Below, piece after piece: positions 18,716 to 52,888 of a stretch of DNA of 64,000 nt. The notes below the pieces were generated by a model. That model did not search any database. It was not told the DNA's origin and saw only the letters and a program-made list of their open reading frames with translations. The DNA comes from Hippasteria phrygiana. Lineage: Eukaryota > Echinodermata > Asteroidea > Valvatida > Goniasteridae. The position numbers and the translations under genes were made by a program. Numbering within the stretch: position 1 is the stretch's first letter; the number at the start of each line of letters is the position of its first letter. The stretch spans positions 2,666,001 through 2,730,000 of the forward strand of contig JAZGUH010000323.1 in assembly GCA_037893225.1 (NCBI GenBank). Reading direction: 5' to 3'.

Positions 18716-18920
18716 TTAAAACCCAAACAGTACTGAACCCATCAAAACCCAGCAGCATGTTTGGTTGGAATCTGTTAGGATGGGTACTGGACCCCCAAAC
18801 TGATTGTCCTTTACACTGAGTTTGGCATACAGTGTACCACCAGAATCAGAGTCCAACAATTTGTGTGTACAGTTTTTGGAATTTGCAAGGATGGGTATGG
18901 TTCCTAGTAAATTATACCAG
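18716..18920 (-). repeat. Repeat family C, copy
   Basis: It shares AGTACTGAACCCATCAAAAC and GAATTTGCAAGGATGGGTAT with the copies at 45,297-45,505 and 46,523-46,700, in inverse orientation to them. Confidence 0.75.
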
Positions 18921-18982
18921 TGGGTTAGAGGTGTGCGTTTACGGGTAATACAGGAATCGGGTACCTGATTGAAAAAAGCACG

Positions 18983-19241: not shown

Positions 19242-20579
19242 CTAACTGACATTAAAAAACTTTCTATAGTACGAGGCGAGTCCAAAAAAAGAACGGAGTT
19301 CTTCGGCACTCCTTGGAGTTGGCCAACTTGCGACTCGCTCCACTTTGTCAGGGTCCACTGTAACTCCAAAACTACCAACCACATGCCCTAGATGCTTAAC
19401 TTCACGTTGGAAGAAGTGGCACTTACTACCCTTGAGCCTGAGCCTGTACTTGATGAGTCTCTCGAACACGACACCCAGCCTCTCCAGGTGCTCCTGAAAG
19501 GTACTTGAATAAACCAAGATGTCATCCAAGTACAAGATCAACTTGGACAAATTTATGTCCCTTAAAATCAGTTCGACAGTCCATTGGAACATGCTTGGGC
19601 TATTACACAGCCCCTGAGGTATTCGAGTGAATGCGAAGAGCCCCCATGGAACTCGAAATGCGGTCTAGTCTGGATGCATGACCAGCTGAAAATACCCATG
19701 ATCCATATCCAATGAACTAAAATACTGATCGAGAACCCCCCAACGCCTCTAGAGTCTCCTCAATGCGTGGGAGTGGAAATGCATCTCTCAAAGTAATGGC
19801 GTTGAGCTTGCGAGAATCTATGCAAAGTCGGATTGAATCATCATCCTTGCGAACAAGAACTATAGGGCTTGTATAAGGGCTCGTGGACCTCTGAATGACT
19901 CCCTTCTCCAACAGGTCCTGCAACAACTTTTGCACTTCCTTCATGTAATGTGGAGGAACGCGTCGGTAAGGTTGCCTAATAGGTTGTCACTTGTCAGCTT
20001 AATTTCATGGAGAACGAGAGTACACTTCCCTATGTCTAATGGGCTCATTGGGAAAGCAGCCTCATATTTCCCAATCAGCTGAGCGATCAACACAGCCTCC
20101 CCACGATCAAAATCCCTCAAGCTGATTCCAGGAGGAAGCAAGTATGAGGAACCATCAGGAAAAACAACCGTTTCCCTAATCACACTGGGTGGATCATCCC
20201 TACCAGGGACTCCAGAGACAACTGTCTCATCCCCAACAATACTTCCAGGGTCCGGGGATGCTCTTAAGTTTTCCTCGATCATTTTTACCTGTTCCACAGT
20301 GACCTGCAAACCATCCCAAAGGTGAACCTCGTTGGTGAGTTTGGCCTCAATAGCTGTCACTATTCTTATATGCTCAGGAAGTGTTACCAGACTTTCACAA
20401 AAAATACAAACCAAGACACGCAGAGAGGAATCCTCTACAAGCTGCACACCCTCAATAACATGGATATCACCCATCACTGACTCATTGAGCTCTCCTGTAT
20501 CGTTTGCCCGCTCTTCAAACGAATCCGCATGGATAAGAACACATGCGTCGGACAAACTCGTCTGAAATGGTTTACTCAA
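19242..20579 (-). pseudogene. Ty3/Gypsy pol relic: linker and truncated reverse transcriptase
   Basis: Reading the minus strand, an acidic linker ends in the conserved KYEAAFP...DIGK region just before RT (about 20,050-20,000). After a frameshift near 19,970, RT begins (LLEKGVIQRSTSPYTSPIVL, about 19,920-19,860). A second frame break falls near 19,720 and an in-frame TAG near 19,663, with the PQGL block further on. The catalytic box reads YLDD (about 19,525), followed by KCHFF and LGHVV blocks. The frame stops being RT-like at about 19,260, after the FFGLASYYRKF block. RNase H, integrase and the downstream LTR are missing. This is a dead, 3'-truncated copy. Confidence 0.88.
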
Positions 20580-20944
20580 ATTGCAGGATCAAACACGGGC
20601 CGAGAACGGAGCAATGATCTTATCACGAGCAATGCAAACATTAACAACAAATCCTTGCGTTGGCAACACCAACCCACAAACTTCATCATCCTGCACCTCA
20701 TTCATGCAAGTAAACCACTGCAGGGCAACCGTCCACTCATCTTTGGAAGGTCCACACGGGGTGACACGCATTTTAGCCAGAGTGCGCGAAATGTTGCAAC
20801 CAAGAAGTACAGGGTACATCCTGCGACGTTCAGTAGGTACCTCTGAACTCTCATCTCGAACCAGAAATGGTCAACCCAAAAATAGTAACCGGAATCTCCA
20901 GATAGCCTTTAACAGTTATATCTAATTCATTGGTTCCCATCAAT

Positions 20945-21244
20945 CTAATGAATCTCCCGACCGGCCTCAAACTGCCCACTTTGTTTGGCCAAATTCTCCT
21001 TATAAAACGTTGAAGTTATTAGGGATGTCTCAGCACCACTATTCAAAATACAATTAGTGGTCACACCTCCCATAGCAATTTCAGCTGTGGGACTACTGGC
21101 AATCAGTTTCTCTCGCAGCTGTTCCTCAGTATAATAACCATCAATCCCTAAAACTCCAACAGCATTTGTCTCTAAATACTCATCACTGGTCAACCCAATG
21201 GAACACGGTTTGGGCAGGTTATTACCCTCCACCACCTTGCCCAC
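20945..21244 (-). pseudogene. Ty3/Gypsy aspartic protease fragment
   Basis: A 99-codon open piece lies between gag and the RT linker of the same relic. It contains an ILNSGAETSLI stretch, the retropepsin active-site box with Asn in place of the catalytic Asp. That substitution and the frame breaks on both sides indicate an inactive remnant. Confidence 0.7.
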
Positions 21245-21301
21245 TATGGTGAAGGGCTTGGGTTTTCCGGTACGTTTGGTTTTGTCCCATCACGATTCTC
21301 A

Positions 21302-22342
21302 TCACTTTTCTTCCAACAATTTCTGGAGATATGACCAGTTCTCTTGCAATGATGGCAAATAACTTGGCCTGTTACTCTTGGACGCAATGGCCGCATCAAG
21401 CTTTGTACTCAATACATTGGTTAACTCTGCCAGCTGACTTGTAGCAGCAGCTTGTTGCTGTGAAAGAGCTTCTAATCTCTCTACAATCAACTGGTTAGAG
21501 GCCACTAACTGGGAGAACACATCATCAGACCTCCTAGCTGCAACCCGAACTTGAACATCTTTAGACTCCTCACCACAGACTGCAGTCTCTCTGACCTTAT
21601 TTTTCTTTATAATAGGTGCCTTCTCTTCATGTTCTGGAAAAAGTTCCAGCATGTGTTCCCTAAACCTATAAAACGACAACATAGGTTTTTCGAGCTGGAT
21701 GCGGCGCAATTCCCTACGAATGGCACTGTCGCGCGTACCTTGTACAAAACGCTCCTTCAATGCTTTGTCGCACATGAGCTGCAGTGCAGCCAATTCTGGC
21801 CCTTGCGCACTCTGTTCCATGCAGTCATGGATTCTCATTAGCGCCCGGCTAAACTCTGCAAGGGTTTCCCTATCATTCTGGCTTCTAACGTACAGTGTGC
21901 CCATTAGTGCTGCAATGCTCTCCGACGGCCCAAAAATATTACCCAAGAGTGTAAGCAATTTTTCTAGGGTATCTCTCTCTTCCTGGGGACTATATATAAT
22001 CTCTTCTTTGGCCACGCCCCCTAAATGGTCTAGGGCAACCCCAACTTGCTCATCCTTGGTCAGCTCCAACTGTCGACAATAAGAGTCAAGTTCTTCTATC
22101 CATTCACCCAATGTCAAATCTCCAGGTTTTACAGGTGGTCCTGTAAATTTGGACAATTTCAATTTTGGAGCCCTATTACATTGTAAACTTAAGACCTTGA
22201 AATGCCTTAGCAAGTGTTTCTGCGTGAGCCTCATTTGATTTGCTATGACCTCCGCTAAGCCCTCTGCAGTAGCCATGTTTCCATCAACAGTTAAGGAAAC
22301 TTGATGCATATAATCCAAGAGTGGGCCTATAATACCTATCAC
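21302..22342 (-). pseudogene. Ty3/Gypsy Gag relic
   Basis: A 346-codon open frame whose first ATG lies 11 codons in (about 22,309). Its middle (PVKPGDLTLGEWIEELDSYC to FVQGTRDSAIRRELR) is a typical retrotransposon Gag capsid-like helical region. A Gln/Ala/Leu-rich segment follows, and in the next frame a Cys/His knuckle-like CHHCK...CWKK lies near 21,345-21,305. Gag coats the element RNA. It is open but separated from pol by frame breaks. No 5' LTR or primer-binding site is recognisable between 22,343 and 22,560. Confidence 0.82.
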
Positions 22343-22964
22343 TGGGTCATAATTGAATGATCAAGTAACAGTGTTTTGAGCACCCAGTTCAGCGGTGAGT
22401 ACAAAATGTGACTATAAACCTGTTACAAATAAATCAGTAATTGACTTGCACTTCACACAGAATATATGCAAGAGACATATTAAAATGTAAATGTATAAAC
22501 ATCTCACATGGGATAGAGAAATTCACACAAAGGCATGTGAGCAAATCATGCAACTTGTTTTTTTTTTTTCCCCGCCCAATATAGAGTTAAAACACCAAAT
22601 ATTCATTTGCAAATCCAATTGCATGTAGTAGTATACATGGTATAGGAGATGCCGATTCTGCAACAAATCTCTCATCTCTCTACCCTCCAGAAAAAATTTA
22701 ATAAATTTTCAAAATTTTTAATAAATTCTCTCTTTCCACTTTTTTCTCCTCCCCCCTCCCTCCATCTCCATCACTCAGTCAAATTCACTTTTATTTTTTC
22801 TTAAATTATGTCGTACTCCCTACAGTCATACTCGCGTAGCTACGCTCGTAGGGCGTAGTCGTATACCTACCCAACATAATTTCAAAAAATCGCAAAATTT
22901 TATCATTACATTTGTGTCGTATAGATATACACCAGAAATTTACAAAAATCGTACAAAAAAAGAA

Positions 22965-43476: not shown

Positions 43477-45296
43477 TGCAGGGCAGTTTTCCAAGGATTT
43501 CCAGCTGGAAATCGTTAAAAAACGATATAAATTTCAACTTTTCTTGACAACGACAGCACACCTGGTGCCATCATTTCACAGGATGATTGAGACTACTATT
43601 AACTTAGTCTAGTAAGGTATTTCGTAATAATTCAATAAAAAAAAAATTGGAGGATTACCAATCATGTACACTACTTTTAAAAAGTCTTAAATTGAATTAT
43701 CCAAATTTAAAGGTACATTGTACTGTAATTTTATTTGAATTATAATTAAGAAGAAAACTTCATGAAACAGTCAATGAAAACGGCACGTTTGAATCTCTTT
43801 CACGAGTTGTAAATGGAGTGTTTCTACGGTAGAAACACCGAGGTCTACACTGATCGGACCTTTTCCGGCTGGGTAAAAGGTTAAACATTGACCTGTGACA
43901 TGGACAAATTACTGCGTCAGTGTGTGGTGTGTGCATGCACAACTGGCACACTATGATATGCAACCGTACCACTGTACACTACCGCGTCGCCCGTTAGCAC
44001 ATGGCCGGCTATTCTTGGTTCCAAGACATCCTTATGTTCGCACGGTGCGAAGCATCGTGAACATATAGATGTACAGCGCCCTCTACACATGCACACCAAG
44101 GCTAGGCCACATCCCCAAGGACGTCTTGGCCCTTTCGTAGTTTCGCTCGCGAAATCGCGAGCAGAATTGTGTGTACATATAAATTTGCATGCGCGCGTGA
44201 CGTACAGTAGAGTGCATATAATGACGTGACCTGCATTGAATTGTATAATCGCTGACTCACTGGTCTACAATGTACATGTAGTTTCCCGCGCCATACAGCT
44301 TGAGGTACACATGTACGCATACGTTGTCGTGTACATTACCTGACTAGCCAGCTAATTACTAAAACATGATTTTCTCCAGTGCACAAGCGCCATTATTCTT
44401 TTGACCTGCCTGTTAAATTATGCATACACAGGTCACCACGGCCGTCCCACGGAGTAAATAAGAAAGTGCCGCTCATGTGTCACAATTATGCCAGTTAATT
44501 TCGCTCATTGGCTTTGTCATGTTTGTGGGCGTGGTTAAAAACTGGCAACGTTCATGGCATATTTGCAAAATATTTTGTCAGCCTCTATCTGTTCTGATTG
44601 GTTCAAATAAGACAACTGTTGAATTTATATGAGTTATAATGACGTTGAATACAAATTTATTCATCCTTGCAACAAGGTCAAATGTCAAATATTTTTTTTA
44701 AATTCAGCGCCCGATTGCTACAAGATTTGTGTGTACTCGACAACCAGTGCTCTATCGATGTCCTTTTAAATCACTATTTTCGTACAAAATATAAGTTTCT
44801 ACGCCGATATCCATAACTGTCTGGACACCGTGGTGCATCGACTGAACACTTGTGAGAAGGTGAGGGCAGCTAATTTTGTTTGTTTTAGGTTCAGTCGGAA
44901 AGACGAGAAATTTGAGTTTTTCGCATTCACGCTGGCTGCGCCCGTGTGTATGCATGTGGTGTATACGTTTACATGCACAATGTACTATGAGGATACGGGC
45001 ACACGATTTATGTGTATCGGCCTAGGCCTACGTACATGTTCATACACGATATGCATGACATGTGCGTATAATGTATCTACAGTTTCAAGGTACATGTACA
45101 TGTACCCTAGGCTAGCCTAACAAAAAGCCAGTGGGTATTTTTTTCTGAGTGTGCTTGGAACTTAGAAGATAAATTTGAAAATACTGCGCTCAGATTTTAA
45201 AACTTCCAGTGCAAAACAATGAAAAAACTTTGAATAATTTATTTAGAAGTTAAAAACTTATAGGCTACATGTACACGTTATAGCCTTATTACTATT

Positions 45297-45505
45297 ATAA
45301 CCTCCTAGTATAATTTACTACTACTAGGAACTATACAGTATCCTTGCAAATTCCAACACCATTCATATGGTACACACAAATTGTTGGACTCTGATTCTTG
45401 TGGGACCCCCAAACTCAGTTTAGGGGTCTAGTACCCATCATAACAGATTCCAACTAAACATGCTGTTTGGTTTTCATGGGTTGAGTACTGTTAGGGTTAA
45501 ACATG
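45297..45505 (+). repeat. Repeat family C, copy in left tandem unit
   Basis: Contains CCTTGCAAATTCCAACACCA, ACCCATCATAACAGATTCCA and GGGTTGAGTACTGTTAGGGT. Confidence 0.8.
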
Positions 45506-46522
45506 GTAACTTCATGGTAAAGCACGTACGCAAATGTCAACCATGTTTATATTTTCCTTTGATCATTCTCACAAAACAATGAAATAGGTCCCAGTACAGC
45601 GTACAATAAAACACTTCAGTTTGATTTTTTTTTGCCTAGCCAATGTTATTTGGAAAATGACAAAATAAGAGACTAATCTGTTGACCTCCATTTCCTATCA
45701 CTGCCACATATTAGGGTTTTAACTTAGTTTCAGGCTTGCTCCTAATCTTCCTAGGATAAATTATGAATCTCAAATTAATTCTGATACTGAGACGTAGACT
45801 ACATTATGTAAGTCTGCTATCTACATTGTATTTATTCTTCTTTCTTCCTTTTAACTGCAGGAATGAACTGTGCCTGGACTTCTGGGATGGTGCTTGTGAT
45901 GTCGCCTCAATTAAAAGACGCTGTACAGTCTCGTTCGTGTTGCATCGTCTGAACACTTGTGATCGTGATCATGAGAAGGTGAGGGGAGCTCATTTTGTTT
46001 CTTTTAGGTTGTCAGAAAGACGAGTAATTTGAGTTTTTCGCGTTCACGCTAGCTGCGACCGTGTTTACGTTTACATAATGCATGTGCTTAAAATGTACAT
46101 GTACATGTATACAATGTATACATTTACATGCACAACGAGGATACATGTTGGGTACACGATTTACATGTAAAAAACACGTACATGTTCATACATGATATGA
46201 CATGCGCGTATAATCATAGGTAGTTTCAAGTTTATATGTACCCTAGGCTAGCCTAAAAAAAGCCAGTGGTTATTTTTTTGTGAGTGTGCTTGGAACTTAT
46301 AAGATAAATTTGAAATACTGCGCTTAAATTTGAAAACTTCCAGTGTAAAAATAATAAACAATTTTTTAACAATTTATTTAGAAGTTAAATACATAATTAG
46401 ACATGGACATTAATTTCTTAAGTACGACTGATGTACTGGCATGCAAATAAACATGTATGAAAAACCTCTTTAAATCATTCAAATTTTTATTCTGATGGCG
46501 GTGTTATGTTTATGTACATCTG

Positions 46523-46700
46523 AACCCTAACCTCCTACTATAATTTACTAGGAACCATACCCATCCTTGCAAATTCCAACACTATGCACTTATGGTAAAC
46601 TGTACACACAAATTTCAGTTTGGGGTCCAGTACCCATCCTAACAGATTCCAACCAAACATGCTGTTGGGTTTTGATGGGTTGAGTACTGTTGGGGTTAAA
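46523..46700 (+). repeat. Repeat family C, copy in right tandem unit
   Basis: Same words as the left-unit copy, with ends AACCCTAACCTCC / GGGGTTAAAC in inverse orientation. Confidence 0.8.
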
Positions 46701-47022
46701 CATGATAAACTACATATCCACCATGTTTTTTATTTTCCTTTGATCCTTCTAAAAAAAGCAATGAAATACATGTAGGTCCCAATACACCATACAATGAAAC
46801 ACTTCAGTTTGATTATGGTTTTGTTTTGCTTAGCCAATGAATGTTATTTGGAAAATAACAAAATAATAGACTAATCTTTTGACCTCAATTTCCTATCACT
46901 GCCGCATGTTAGGGTTTTAACTTAGTTTCAGGCTTGCTCCTAATCTTCCTATATTTGGAATCTCCAATTAATGCTGAGTACTGATACTGAGACGTAGACT
47001 ATGATGTAAGTCCGCTATCTAT

Positions 47023-50000
47023 TTATTCTTCTTTCTTTCTTTTAAATGCAGGAATGAACTGTGCCTGGACTTCTGGGACGGTGCTTGTGTTATGTCGCCT
47101 AATGATGGTTAAAAGACGCTGTAGATCATCCTTTATGCCGTGAACAACCTGCCCCGTTTTGTTAAACTCTGTATGATCGAGCTCAACGCCCTGCTTATTC
47201 AGAAGGCCGAAGCCTACACCAAATCTCTCAAATTGCTCTACTGCATGATTTTCAAGCAGGTGCATCTAGGGTGTGACTGAGTGTGAGGGGAACTTCCTTC
47301 TGTATGTCGCCATGAAATCAATGATATGAAAGGTAAATTTAGAAAGGTAAATTTAGAAATTAATTCTTTAAATTGCCATAAGTATTTCAATTTTGTCATG
47401 ACACCCCCCCCCCCCCTATGCTAAAACTTTCAAAATAGTTTTTATTATAAATATTTATAACTTACCAACATGACACGTCATCCTCTGTGACTACTCGTGC
47501 ATGGTTTATTGCAAAATGCACGTCGGCAAATTTCATGAAAATTTCATGAAACAATTTGCCGACTGCTGCAGCGTACTGGCCGAGCTCTAGATGTCGTGCT
47601 AGTGGAATACTGCCACAAGAAAGTGATTCAATGACTCTTCTGGGTGTGGATATCAGGTCATTGATGACATCAACCTACATGCAGATAAATACATGAAAAA
47701 CACATTAATCTGAGACAAAACCCATTTCTTATTTGAAGATACATGTACCCTACATGTTAATGTACATGATGTATGGTACATTTATATGTACATTGTACAT
47801 GTACTTGTAGTTTAAAGACAATTACCTTGCAGCACTTATGCACGTGATTTCCTACAAATGCCTTGCTATGATATGCTTGTCTCTGAACATTGTGTTTTTT
47901 AGGGTTTCATCAAGAGCACTGGCAGTGGGTCCCGTTCCAAAGGGCAGCTCGGCAGTAATCTGTTCCTGTTCAGGATTGAAAAAAAATGCAGTAAGTACTA
48001 AGTACATGTTTGTTGGACCAAAACATAGTGTCAATAAAACTGGAGATTTGTCTGCAGTTGACACCTTATTTTTAAGATTAAAAGCTTCATGTGCCATTCC
48101 TTCGAAAACTTTGCCTGCTCCTTGCCTCTTCTGTTGCAAAAATTGCAGGGGCAGCTCCTCCTCGAGTTGTTCCAACTGTTCCCTTTTTGCAGATATGTCC
48201 TTCTGAAGCTTTTGCTGCCTTCCGAATTCTTCTGACACCTGTTGTTCGAAATTCGTAGAACTTCTGTCCTCTTCTGCATACTCAACTGAGGATTTGTATA
48301 ACTTGACATCTATCTCATGACAGCTGGTCTCAAACATCATACAGTTTTTTGTAGATGCCAAGAGATATTGTGTAAACTTGGAAGGACAACCTGTGATATG
48401 GGAAGAGTAAATCATAAATTTATGTGAAAAAAGATTGAAATATATTATCTAACACTGAATTATAAAATACGAATTGTAACATGTAACATGTACATGTACA
48501 TGGTCAACCTCAACTGGAATCATTGCCTTGGCAATGACACTATGGGAGACATCTTTAGCCCGAGCCTTGCAGGATCCATCATCGTTGTATGCCTTGAAGC
48601 TCTTTGCTAGGGAATCAACGTTTCTGTACTGAATACCTTCACCTCCTTGATCTGGGAGAAGCTGCATTTCAGTCCGTGATGTAGTGCAGTACAAGCAGCA
48701 GTAACGGGCTGTCACAAAACAAGTTTTTGATGTATTTTAAATAAGTTTGCTGAATAGACTGAAAATACATTTAATAATTAATTTAGAGAAACCGTAAAGG
48801 TGGTTAGGTTGGCAATTCAAAATGTCGCCAACCCTCTCTGACCTTAACCCTTTACTTAGAGTGGCTTTTAGCCTTGTCTTGGGTGATAAATAAATAAATT
48901 AATTTATTAATTGATCGATCGATCGATTGATTGCAGCTGCAAATACCGTAGATCTTGGTGAGTAGCTCATAGTCTCCAAATACAAACACACAGAGTTTTC
49001 TGTTCCTGGAAATACATGTAAACAATAAGAAATACACAATACAGCTTGTTATTATATTGATGAGTGTAAAAACTGTTTTCTTGTTTTCTTGTTTTCTTTT
49101 CTTCATGTTTATTGTGCAGCAGCAAGACTGAAGTTTCTGGGACAGCACTATTTAAAACATTGACACCATCTGTAGGCGAGAAATGCAACATTAATAATGA
49201 AGGTGACACACATTCTAATGTAAATGCCAGTTTATTTATCACTACTATATTTTACACAAAGATTTCATTTTGATTTTCAACCTTAATATTGTACATTACC
49301 TCCAAGTTTGATTCTAGAGTGACGTCACTTGTTCAAAGATTGGAATAAGATATTGCAGGTTGGCAGTTGAGTCAGACGCCTCAAAACAAGGGAAAACCAC
49401 TGTGTTTCTGAGTGAATTGGGATGGTTGGTATTCACAATCTGGAATGCTAACTTGAAGCTGTTTCCGCCTTTGTCGCCTCCTAGTTTAATCAAAATTTCA
49501 TCCTCTGGAATTACTCCATTATGCCAAGTCAATGAGTTTTGCCTTAAATTTTTTTTTTTTAAATAGGATAGAAAATAAAAACATGTAAATCAAATGTAGA
49601 TTGTAAAATCTGTAATTGCCTTGAGAAAAAAAGCTTTCTTTATTATAGTCACACTTTTCGTGTACTGTTTTCTTTTCCAATGTGCAGCTTACAATTGATG
49701 TCTGTCCAGGTAGTCCATCACCATGGCGGGAAGATCCTTCACGTGTACAAACGGAACATCTTTTGAGATCATCCCGTTGACTCCAGTAGCCTTGTTGGAT
49801 GGAAAGAGCATTGGTTAGAGAGAGCCATGCAGGTTGTCTTTCAAGAGGATGCTCTGTCTTTTTCACATCTGTCGTTCCGAAGACACTGCTATTCCACTTG
49901 GTGCTAGGTACAATGTATCTGCAATATATTTTTAAAAGGGTCATGTGCAATAAAATGTGTATTATGTAGAATTATGTATCATAAATTAAGATATTACAGG

Positions 50001-50592
50001 CCAGAAAAATACAATCTTGTCACAATGTTGGGACCATATTTTGATACCCACATGTACTCAAAATATGTGACCGGCTCTGGCAAAACCCGACGCTTCTCAG
50101 CATTTCCCATTACGCGGTATGGGCCCGCAACGTTAAAAAATTGCATCAGTGATACCAAAACCCCAATATTGAAATTTGTGACTAACTCTTACAAAACCTA
50201 ACACTTTGGGTGAAATTTCAATATTGGGGTTTTGGTATCAATGATGCCATTTTTTAATGTTATGCGGGCCAATGGTTTTGCCAGAGCCGGTCACATAATT
50301 ATTCACAATCCAATTAATAATTGGTGCACTTCATGAACTCAACTGTTCAACTGAGCTTGTAAGTAATGTTTCAAATACTGCAGGTAAAATATGTCAAAAA
50401 AATGTAATTCCCAGTGTAAATTGTTGAAATCATCGCCGAGGTGTAATAGAACCAAATCAAAATTACCTGCAGAGTTTCCGAACCTGCTCTCATGCAAGCT
50501 GACAATCCCTCATCATTGCTAAAGAGACATCGGGTGACTGTTTGGAGGTCGGAGTCTCATTGCTGGATTGTTTGACACTCTGCCGTTTCAGT
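47023..50592 (-). pseudogene. RAG1-like / N-RAG-TP-like transposase core, broken
   Basis: Exon pieces on the minus strand, 5' to 3' and joined by good splice signals: about 50,584-50,467; 49,918-49,693 (ends VPFVHVKDLPAM...DRHQL); 49,542-about 49,298 (EILIKLGGDKGGNSFKLAF); 49,005-48,947 (RKLCVFVFGDYELLTKIY); 48,708-48,509 (ARYCCLYCTTSRTEM); 48,390-48,065; 47,965-47,826 (ITAELPFGTG; YHSKAFVGNHVHKCC); 47,674-47,466; about 47,306-47,023 (MHLLENHAVEQF, GVELDHTEFN). Candidate catalytic residues are D (codon 49473-49475), D (48972-48974) and E (47182-47184). By context these resemble RAG1 D600, D708 and E962, the second followed by a C-x2-C zinc pair as in RAG1; this alignment is inference. Lesions include a TGA in the first exon, frame breaks in the 48,390 and 47,965 exons, and an in-frame TAG at 47266-47268. 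It would have been a DNA-cutting transposase in the nucleus; this copy is dead. Confidence 0.75.
50066..50295. repeat. 230-bp foldback MITE with TA target
   Basis: TGTGACCGGCTCTGGCAAAAC at 50066 and its inverse ending 50295 are flanked by TA on both sides (50064-50065, 50296-50297). The arms pair through ACCAAAACCCCAATATTGAA. TA duplication suggests Tc1/mariner-type mobilisation. It lies in an intron of the RAG1-like gene. Confidence 0.85.
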
Positions 50593-50950
50593 CGCACACA
50601 TGCATTGTTAAGGAATATAATATAAAATGTGCGGTTCTTTGAAAACTTCAGTATGTTGGATATTGTTTTTGTTTTTTTTAAGTATTGTTACACAAAATAG
50701 AAAGCTGTCTTTTATAGTGTAAATAGTATTTATATAATAGTGTAAGTTGTGTGGAATGTATTAAATTGTGTGTACTAGGGTTGTATATGCATTTTATGTG
50801 GTCTTGTGAATTAATTTATTTGTTCATTATCTAATTCTATAAAATGGGTTTTTAAAGCTGTTTGCGAATTGCTGCCAAAGAACTGTTGCACATATTTTTT
50901 TTTAATTGCTGTGAAAATAAATATTCACATTGGAAATGCAGTTTACACAC

Positions 50951-51998
50951 CCTCCCACGAGTCTTAAGTTTAGCTGTTCCACTGATCTGCAGTTTGTGCC
51001 ATGTCCACTTGTCAGAAGCAGCTTCAATTTGTGGTGGAATTGGGGTTCCTTTCACATGTTGTGAAGCCACATGTTCAAGAAGTTTGGCCGCTTTAGTGAT
51101 TTCTGAATCTTGTGTCTGGGAGGGTTGTGGTGTTATTACACCGGGCACAATACACAAATGACAGTGGCATCTAGCCACTTTGGAAGGACATTTATGTTCA
51201 ACCATTTTGTCCAGTTTCCCCATGGATCCACATTTTGAACAAGCTGTTATCAAGCTCCTGAGCTGAAGTCGAAGTACTCTTGGGCATGGGGATACATGTA
51301 CATCAGAGTAGTGTACTGTACATCAGAGTAGTGTACAAGCTGCTTACACACTGGACATGGGACATCCGGTTTGGACTTGTACTTGAACCGTTTAGAAAGG
51401 CATGTGGCACAAAAGTTATGTTCACACGGTGTTTGAATGGTGGGAGTGCTCAGTATGCACTGGCAGATAGGACATGTGAAAATACTCTTCTTCTGAAGAT
51501 TTGCCACACAGTTCCAGTGATGGGCTGACCGTATTGTTGTCGCTGTCACTATCAAGTCCAAATAGGTTTGCAGGCAACTCGGACTTGTTTGCTTGAGTGG
51601 CTGATATACCTGGTCGACTTCGCTTAGGTTGATGATGACCTCCGTCACCTTGTTTCATGAACACTTCACAAATTTCACATTGACCAGTCCTTGGGTGTTT
51701 TTTCCAGTTCAGCCTGGGTGACCGTATAGCACCTTCATGATCATGACACCAGGTACTTATTCTGTCCCCACTTTGGGCATAACGCAAGGATCTTGAAAAT
51801 TTGTAGCACACAGATTCTGGGTGTATTTGTGCATCACCATCCCACGTACTAATGGAAAACACTGTATATTTCTTTTCTGTACTTAGAACAGTGCACAGGT
51901 CTCGTGTAGCTCTTACCCTCTCGCTTTTGTGTGGCTGTTTCTAGTCTCCTCCCACACACTTGGCATAATTGTGATAATACTGACTGATGGTACTCCAT
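50951..51998 (-). pseudogene. RAG1 N-terminal-like exons: zinc motifs and RING finger, broken
   Basis: Exon 1 (51,998-51,917; ATG at 51998, donor GGTAAGA, phase 1) encodes LCQVCGRRLETATQKR, like the first Cys pair of the RAG1 N-terminus. Exon 2 begins at 51,861 (acceptor ATACAG, completing the Val codon) with DAQIHPESVCYKF, then LNWKKHPRTGQCEICEVF, matching the RAG1 order 'IHP..FC...W' then 'W..H.P.C.IC'. A C3HC4 RING follows (CPIC-x12-CEHNFCATC-x14-CPVC, about 51,485-51,348), then a CSKCG...H..C finger. In RAG1 the RING has E3 ubiquitin-ligase activity. Frames break near 51,530 (1 nt) and at 51,298-51,336, where a 20-bp tandem duplication shifts the frame by exactly the amount observed. Exon 2 probably ends at 50,951. 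This is the best-supported homology in the transposon. Confidence 0.82.
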
Positions 51999-52888
51999 AA
52001 TTTGAGACGAAAGCCCTCAAAACAAATAGAAACACTGAATACGATGACCCGCAACGCCTCCGATCCGCTGTGCCACGACGGACACTGTTGATCTTTGCGT
52101 ATTGTTTACACTTAAATTTCGCGCCACTACGCTATAGCCTACATGTACTGCAGAGTGCTACATGTAGCTATACGTTGTGTGTATGTTGAATGGTTGAATG
52201 TATGCATGTTTGCGTGCAAACTAGTACGTGCACACAAAGATGCCGTGATTTCTGCACCGGTTTCTTCGCTTGTAACTTAAAAATCAGAGCTGCCCTCACT
52301 GAAAAAAATCAAAAAGAAATTGAACAAAGGAATATTTTGCCAAGAAACTTCAGTCATTACGTCCACAAAACTTATTTTCACTTAGTTTGCAAGCAAAATG
52401 TAACGTCATTTTCCCCAGCAGGCGCACAACAATTTATCACACACGGGAGACGTAAAAATTGCTCCTTTTTCTGTTTTTAATAATGAAATGATTGAATACC
52501 GTATAAAATCACCATAAATTATTTCAACACAGATACTACATCGATGAAAACATTGTTTAAATTGGTATTTTTTTGTCAAAAATGAAACTTTTTCTTTCGC
52601 GTTTTACAAAATCGCGACGTAAACATAACGCCGCCATCTTTGTGCAGGACCAACACTCATTACTGGAGTAAATACATGTATATTCAAACACGATGAATAG
52701 CTAAACTTTATTTGTGTTGTGCCAATTGGGGTGAAACGACTGTGTCACGCGTAGTTCCCTACGAAAGGGCTAAGACGTCCTTAGCAATGTGGCCTTGTAT
52801 GCATGTGTAGAGGGCAGGCAGTGTACAGCCATTAACTTGTGTGCGCTGCATCGCACGGCGCGATAAGGACGTCTTGGAACCAAGACTA

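Follow-up and report, generated by a model that had tools for sequence, protein, structure and literature searches.

A probable Chapaev/N-RAG-TP transposon, now dead, with a RAG1-like N-terminal region and unequal ends in the sea star Hippasteria phrygiana

INTRODUCTION

Transposons of the Chapaev/N-RAG-TP kind duplicate 4 bp at their target (target-site duplication, TSD). For the Aplysia N-RAG-TP, a transposase and terminal inverted repeats (TIRs) resembling recombination signal sequences (RSSs) were reportedly also described, by Panchin and Moroz in 2008. Here we describe an element of the sea star Hippasteria phrygiana, found in a stretch of 64,000 nucleotides that we call the window (assembly GCA_037893225.1, contig JAZGUH010000323.1, positions 2,666,001 to 2,730,000). 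It is very probably the remains, now dead, of a DNA transposon of this kind that was autonomous and moved by cut-and-paste, with one transposase of about 1,000 residues that joined a RAG1-like N-terminus to a RAG1/Transib-fold core.

Chapaev groups with a Chapa zinc finger and a RING have already been described, and both were inferred to have been fused to the core in an ancestor shared by Chapaev, Transib and RAG1 (PMC4411706). The Chapaev-type DDE core carries C(2)C and H(3-4)H between the second D and the E (PMC12730594). N-RAG-TP was described as made up entirely of RAG1 N-terminal-like sequence, and the RAG1 N-terminus was proposed to come from a separate insertion (PMC8355894). With these elements in print, the novelty that the original prediction, made from the letters of the window, attached to its finding was overstated.

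RAG signals consist of CACAGTG, a spacer of 12 or 23 bp and ACAAAAACC, and Transib TIRs are mostly symmetric (PMC8289069). Outside V(D)J recombination, 12/23 asymmetry is given for some Transibs only; other unequal ends are the 27/31 pair of ProtoRAG and, in a figure legend, those of an oyster RAGL (PMC8355894). In the literature covered, which left out Repbase Reports and the 2008 paper, Chapaev elements with asymmetric RSS-like ends were not described.

RESULTS

A broken transposase gene on the minus strand

The original prediction had placed a broken gene at 47023..51998. The transposase gene is on the minus strand, with its start codon at 51998 and its stop at 47023; the predicted limits held for this coding part and not for the mobile element, which spans 44437-52744. 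The coding pieces were as follows.

51918..51998, minus strand: exon 1, first Cys pair LCQVCG (Pfam RAG1_imp_bd, E 0.0036, 17.3 bits; curated cut-off 23.3)
50951..51848, minus strand: exon 2, C3HC4 RING preceded by the second and third Cys/His motifs and followed by a Cys/His finger, with two frameshifts (Pfam, translation and tblastn)
50466..50590, minus strand: exon 3 (approximate), with an in-frame TGA (read against P0001 residues about 416-442)
49692..49917, minus strand: exon 4, with an internal frameshift (translation and tblastn)
49306..49541, minus strand: exon 5, first catalytic D (GGDKGG), with a TAG close to its end (Pfam DUF1280, E 2.8e-14)
48947..49006, minus strand: exon with the second catalytic D (FGDYE) (translation and tblastn)
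48510..48709, minus strand: exon with CCLYC, a ZnC2-like pair (translation and tblastn)
47812..48388, minus strand: exon or exons with a coiled-coil-like stretch, the FVGNHVHKC motif, frameshifts and a possible intron (translation and tblastn)
47463..47674, minus strand: exon preceding the C-terminal exon (translation and tblastn)
47023..47330, minus strand: last exon, TP*MHLLENH (ZnH2-like), catalytic E (GVE) and stop (57% identity to P0001 922-1022, E 8e-33)

All the motifs named in the prediction were found on the minus strand at the positions it gave: LCQVCG (51968-51951) and IHPESVC (51826-51806) in the window translation, the WKKHPRTGQCEIC motif (51706-51668), the RING beginning at 51480, the second finger ACSKCG...VEHKC (51244-51188), GGDKGG (49481-49464), FGDYE with its end at 48966, CCLYC (48700-48686) and GVELDH (47190-47173). 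These motifs were beyond chance. P0001, a protein of the sea star Asterias amurensis, matched the window by tblastn in eight collinear pieces, which lay between its residues 5 and 1022 (E 2e-4 to 1e-36). The short exon 3 had no tblastn match to P0001 and was placed by reading against it alone.

The gene was broken, as predicted: reading of the window translation gave at least five frameshifts and three in-frame stops, and one of the frameshifts adjoins a short tandem duplication immediately 3' of the RING. The prediction had also proposed profile searches on the separate exons, and ten window pieces, each translated separately, were searched against Pfam. Besides the DUF1280 match and the weak RAG1_imp_bd match listed above, three RING families were over their cut-offs (best zf-RING_UBOX, 1.5e-7). 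The remaining pieces gave nothing convincing.

The 3' part of the element contains a second, larger tandem duplication.

44829..47123 (44829-45925 and 45936-47123): tandem duplication, copies about 75-78% alike

Each unit is about 1.1 kb, and the duplication takes in the end of the last transposase exon. It is old, since its copies have only this degree of similarity. An inverted-repeat insertion of about 240 bp (50061-50300), with arms of 49 nt (94%) and 27 nt (96%), lies in an intron of the gene.

Relatives and the catalytic core

The window read-through, with X at most of the breaks, was used as the query for relatives and found 15 proteins. The best matches were annotated proteins of Asterias amurensis, P0001 (1,025 aa, 41% identity across the whole query) and P0002 (989 aa, 39%). 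A third Asterias protein, two from Acanthaster and one each from Patiria, a sea cucumber, Strongylocentrotus and Diadema matched mostly in the core only. P0010, P0011 and P0012 were also matched, together with three sponge proteins at 12% coverage. Both P0010 and P0012 carried DUF1280 plus RAG1_imp_bd over the cut-off (3.9e-9 and 5.7e-11, respectively), and the RING of P0012 was slightly under its Pfam cut-off. The two halves that had been predicted on one element were indeed on one, and in the relatives both lie within a single annotated protein.

In an alignment of relatives (A1), D537 and D607 were invariant, and C626, C629, H948, H953 and E974 were nearly so. The window keeps the D, D, CxxC, HLLENH and E. 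This bore out the RAG1-like order of D, D and E in the prediction, and the core fits RAG1 and Transib by fold: the predicted structure of an Asterias relative had an RNase H core of the RAG1/Transib fold. The identity of the core to RAG1 was 11-16%, and a search with A1 gave six proteins, with RAG1 and Transib not among them.

A search of the host assembly, likewise proposed with the prediction, was run with P0001 on the 944 Mb of the genome. It gave at least 66 match pieces, and the exon series of the window gene recurred in several other copies. Two of these, L009 and L010, were 98.4% alike across 7 kb, which suggests fairly recent activity. No close DNA sibling of the window copy was found with a 1,495-base query, which had three matches in the genome (itself and two of 64 bases).

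Another genome copy, L013/L014, is 16.4 kb long. Its outer ends keep a perfect TSD (ACCT), and its inner minus-strand open reading frames (ORFs), of 1,427 aa and 380 aa, look retrotransposon-like by eye.

Limits of the element and its insertion site

The element and its surroundings were delimited as follows; the receiving sequence is a miniature inverted-repeat transposable element (MITE) of about 570 bp, with inverted arms of about 130-150 bp.

44437..52744, minus strand: whole mobile element, 8,308 bp (end signals, perfect 4-bp TSD, empty-site junction)
44433..44436, plus strand: TSD TCAC, left
52745..52748, plus strand: TSD TCAC, right
44009..44436: left part of the receiving MITE (genome MITE copies)
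52749..52888: right part of the same MITE (genome MITE copies)

Where homology between host copies broke off, 5' ends beginning CACGGCTG were recognised, and from these the ends of the window copy were located. Its 5' end (52744) was found by pattern and its 3' end (44437) by alignment, and TCAC flanks both. When five host 5' ends were aligned to the window, the L025 type scored 36 at 52705-52744, a score reached by none of 300 shuffles. The other four were at chance level (46 to 177 of 300 shuffles), and one of these aligned to the very 40 bases matched by the L025 type. The L009 3' end aligned at 44437-44462 with a score of 24 (reached by 5 of 200 shuffles), and the other two host 3' ends were at chance level (73 of 200). 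The support from alignment is thus uneven, and the decisive evidence is the insertion site.

A genome search with the right flank gave 67 matches, counting both copy arms and including the window itself. No other match ran beyond query position 207, the first base of the element. The predicted empty site was spanned across the junction in all 14 fetched MITE copies, at 90-93% identity, two of which (L050 and L051) cover only part of the left side. A single TCAC stands at the junction in L041 and L042; the other 12 copies differ there by at least one base. Perfect 4-bp duplications were present in 5/5 copies with both ends found.

As ends of the window copy, the inverted pair 46494-46515/52617-52638 was rejected after the TSD-flanked ends had been found. 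Among the host copies, the first 3' breakpoint of L009/L010 was not a true end. That of L009 lies further out; the true 3' end of L010 was not found.

These data bear on whether the locus could be a domesticated, RAG1L-like host gene. It has multiple exons with splice-like sites, and domestication of RAG-like genes has been claimed for sea urchins (PMC9885083). A domesticated gene is at odds with the many frameshifts and stops, with the TSD and with host copies that have TSDs of their own; the empty site in the MITE already contradicts it, and we regard it as barely credible.

Unequal end signals

Each end of the window copy carries a heptamer beginning with CAC, a spacer and an A-rich block.

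52705..52744, minus strand: 5' end signal, CACAGTC, 24 bp, AAATAAAGT (pattern, L025-type alignment)
44437..44462, plus strand: 3' end signal read inwards, CACGGCC, 11 bp, TAAATAAG (L009 alignment; secured by TSD and empty site)

The window and 28 fetched host loci (182,750 bases, both strands) were scanned for the heptamer and A-rich block with the spacing left free from 0 to 45. This pattern, and a slightly different one, were written after the ends had been seen. The first gave 20 matches: seven at 11 bp, all at 3' ends, and five at 23 and seven at 24 bp, all at 5' ends. The twentieth, at 18 bp, coincided with no known end. In 30 trials on resampled sequence the mean was 2 matches and the maximum 5. 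The second pattern gave 6, 5 and 7 matches at 11, 23 and 24 bp, and one each at 15 and 18. Within the 64-kb window the first pattern occurred only at the two ends of the element. The matches are not 19 independent cases, because several copies are near-identical (L025-L027, L011/L012/L017, L009/L010, L013/L018).

A stricter pattern, read exactly from host copies and therefore biased towards their subfamilies, was run on the 944 Mb with spacing from 7 to 31 and gave 11 matches (seven at 23, three at 24, one at 11). Its reversed control had no match there. Nine of the 11 were at copies already found with P0001; the others were on C521 and C564. In a survey of 20 five-prime pieces, 12 had a spacing of 23-24, one (L024) was shorter and seven had no signal. 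Of 15 three-prime regions, seven had a spacing of 11 and eight no signal. End regions without a signal were truncated, out of range or diverged.

Like the 12/23 RSSs of RAG1, these ends have the order heptamer, spacer, A-rich block, with unequal spacing. They differ in having 11 and 23-24 bp, and TAATAAAGT in place of ACAAAAACC. What they share with the RAG signals is the layout, the CAC and the A-rich character; the resemblance does not extend to the full sequence.

An alternative home for this copy would be the RAGL/ProtoRAG lineage, in which a RAG1L with a RAG2L partner forms a TransibVDJ-type element. ProtoRAG/RAGL shares the RAG1-like N-terminus and core, and asymmetric TIRs are present in ProtoRAG; 27/31 spacing, a 5-bp TSD, RAG2L and a CCGHC tail are its own (PMC8289069, PMC7204232). 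The RAG1-like N-terminus with a RING and the RAG1-fold core would suit a true member of that lineage. The TSD here is of 4 bp, not 5 bp, and the core is only 11-16% identical to RAG1. The CCGHC tail after the catalytic E was not found in P0001, in P0002 (which has a single last Cys) or in the window. No second gene was seen in a search for RAG2L limited to ORFs of 90 aa or more: all seven in L012 were transposase, and the ten others of L009 and L011 had no Pfam match at E 0.01. Membership of the RAGL/ProtoRAG lineage is very improbable.

The N-terminal region compared with RAG1

An N-terminal profile of four relatives (P0001, P0002, and P0010 and P0012, the most RAG1-like) was run against the PDB. 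RAG1 was the top match, at E 4e-16 over the chain as a whole and 8e-14 over the matched stretch itself (composition correction, 29 bits), and profile positions 21-310 aligned to mouse RAG1 100-375. The RING-free RAG1 chain 21wb was matched at E 8e-10. A second profile, of P0018 and three host copies, also had RAG1 on top, yet nearly tied with TRIM30 (1.9e-6 versus 3.2e-6), BRCA1 and others. Among its 50 matches listed, only full-length RAG1 reached the pre-RING part (5-278 on 101-389). RAG1_imp_bd was also matched at E <= 0.01 by a third A4 member (by elimination P0017) and at 0.0035 by one A5 host copy. We interpreted the N-terminal region to be RAG1-like as a whole, most securely through its more RAG1-like relatives.

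Several observations weigh against a RAG1-like transposase in the window copy. As a single sequence, its RING piece matched BRCA1 (E 1.4e-7) and TRIM5 ahead of RAG1 (E 0.004), and the joined N-terminal read-through preferred TRIM5 (6e-6) to RAG1 (7e-4). RAG1_imp_bd in exon 1 was weak and under the curated cut-off, and there was no Pfam match to it in P0001, P0002, P0018 or the joined window N-terminus. Structure prediction of the P0018 N-terminal region was unusable (predicted local distance difference test, 37). The fold of the core was predicted for a relative, 41% identical to the read-through, and not for the window copy itself. A long inverted repeat (43990-44140/52759-52907) could be taken for the ends of the element; it was rejected, being part of the receiving MITE.

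The original prediction had counted a better match of the RING exon to generic TRIM/RING proteins than to RAG1-family proteins among the outcomes that would refute it. For the single window sequence this was literally the case, whereas the family profiles put RAG1 first. The RING could have been a generic host RING captured by a Chapaev-type transposase, convergently and unlinked to the RAG1 N-terminus, as would be suggested by the TRIM/BRCA1 matches, the near tie of RAG1 and TRIM30 and a weak zf-AD match in P0018 (E 0.055). Such a capture would not account for the pre-RING motifs in RAG1 order, the four-relative profile, which runs parallel to RAG1 in order for about 275 residues, its match to 21wb, or RAG1_imp_bd in P0010 and P0012 (4e-9 and 6e-11). 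We consider it improbable.

The zf-AD (ZAD) match covers P0018 residues 13-71 and raises the possibility of a kinship between ZAD zinc fingers and the first Cys pairs of the N-terminal region. A region search with P0012 40-420 gave P0012 and P0020 only, and no RAG1, among the 8,000 candidates to which it was limited. Between the finger and the core, a G-R/H/L-P motif was present in four of the five relatives aligned; this region gave no match to the RAG1 nonamer-binding domain by phmmer or profile, and no RAG1-related Pfam family.

Other sequences in the window

Positions 18720-18928 resemble the 3' untranslated part of the element (about 74% similarity) and adjoin GTACCCGG repeats. This stretch may be left over from a relative or may be a repeat common to both. 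Minus-strand ORFs at 19242-22360 look like a Ty3/gypsy-type retrotransposon by eye (gag-like, 352 aa; reverse transcriptase-like, 140 aa).

DISCUSSION

The traits of the Chapaev/N-RAG-TP kind were present in this lineage: a Chapa-type Cys/His region followed by a RING (motifs, the RAG1 match of relatives, three RING families), a DDE core with C(2)C and H(3-4)H in both A1 and the window, and a 4-bp TSD with CA..TG ends in 5/5 copies with both ends. The RAG1-like core fold of Transib was also found; Transib lacks an N-terminal non-core region, as HzTransib does, and the window lineage has one. Chapaev with Chapa and RING shares the Cys/His N-terminal region and RING, the distant Transib/RAG1-type DDE core with CxxC and HxxxxH, and the CA..TG ends; the parts of that source consulted make no mention of RSS-like ends of 11 and 23-24 bp (PMC4411706). 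The Aplysia N-RAG-TP shares RAG1 N-terminal-like sequence on a transposon; here this region and a full DDE core are in one protein (PMC8355894). Vertebrate RAG1 shares the N-terminal motif order, RING and finger, core fold, D-D-E and zinc-site spacing, and differs in its core (11-16% identity), its RAG2, none being seen here, and the 4-bp TSD of the window lineage.

A live element would have encoded one transposase of about 1,000 residues, with a RAG1-like zinc-binding N-terminal region including a RING, most securely recognised in relatives, and an RNase H core of RAG1/Transib fold with D, D, E, CxxC and HxxxxH, as modelled for the Asterias relative. A dimer would bind both unequal ends through the CAC heptamer and A-rich block and cut next to CAC in the manner of RAG1. 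The excised element would then be joined to the target with a 4-bp stagger, consistent with the duplications observed. By analogy with RAG1, the RING would probably serve in dimerisation and as a ubiquitin ligase. Frameshifts, stops and the tandem duplication later left the window copy unable to function.

The lineage may join a RAG1-type N-terminus, a RAG1-fold core and RSS-like unequal ends without a recognisable RAG2, its transposase needing one short and one long end. This would place a 12/23-type rule outside, and perhaps before, RAG1-RAG2 and Transib; we put it forward tentatively and with some doubt. That the ends operate by such a rule is an inference.

Taken by itself, the window copy is of modest value, being one old and dead representative of a known kind; its anatomy is unusually complete. 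The notable part is the combination, in one lineage, of the RAG1-type N-terminus, the RAG1-fold core and the unequal RSS-like ends. It touches two open questions, the origin of the RAG1 N-terminal region and the rise of 12/23 asymmetry in recombination signals. A lineage that has the N-terminus, the core and the asymmetric end pair together, and whose less-decayed relatives occur in this genome and in another sea star, makes both questions directly testable.

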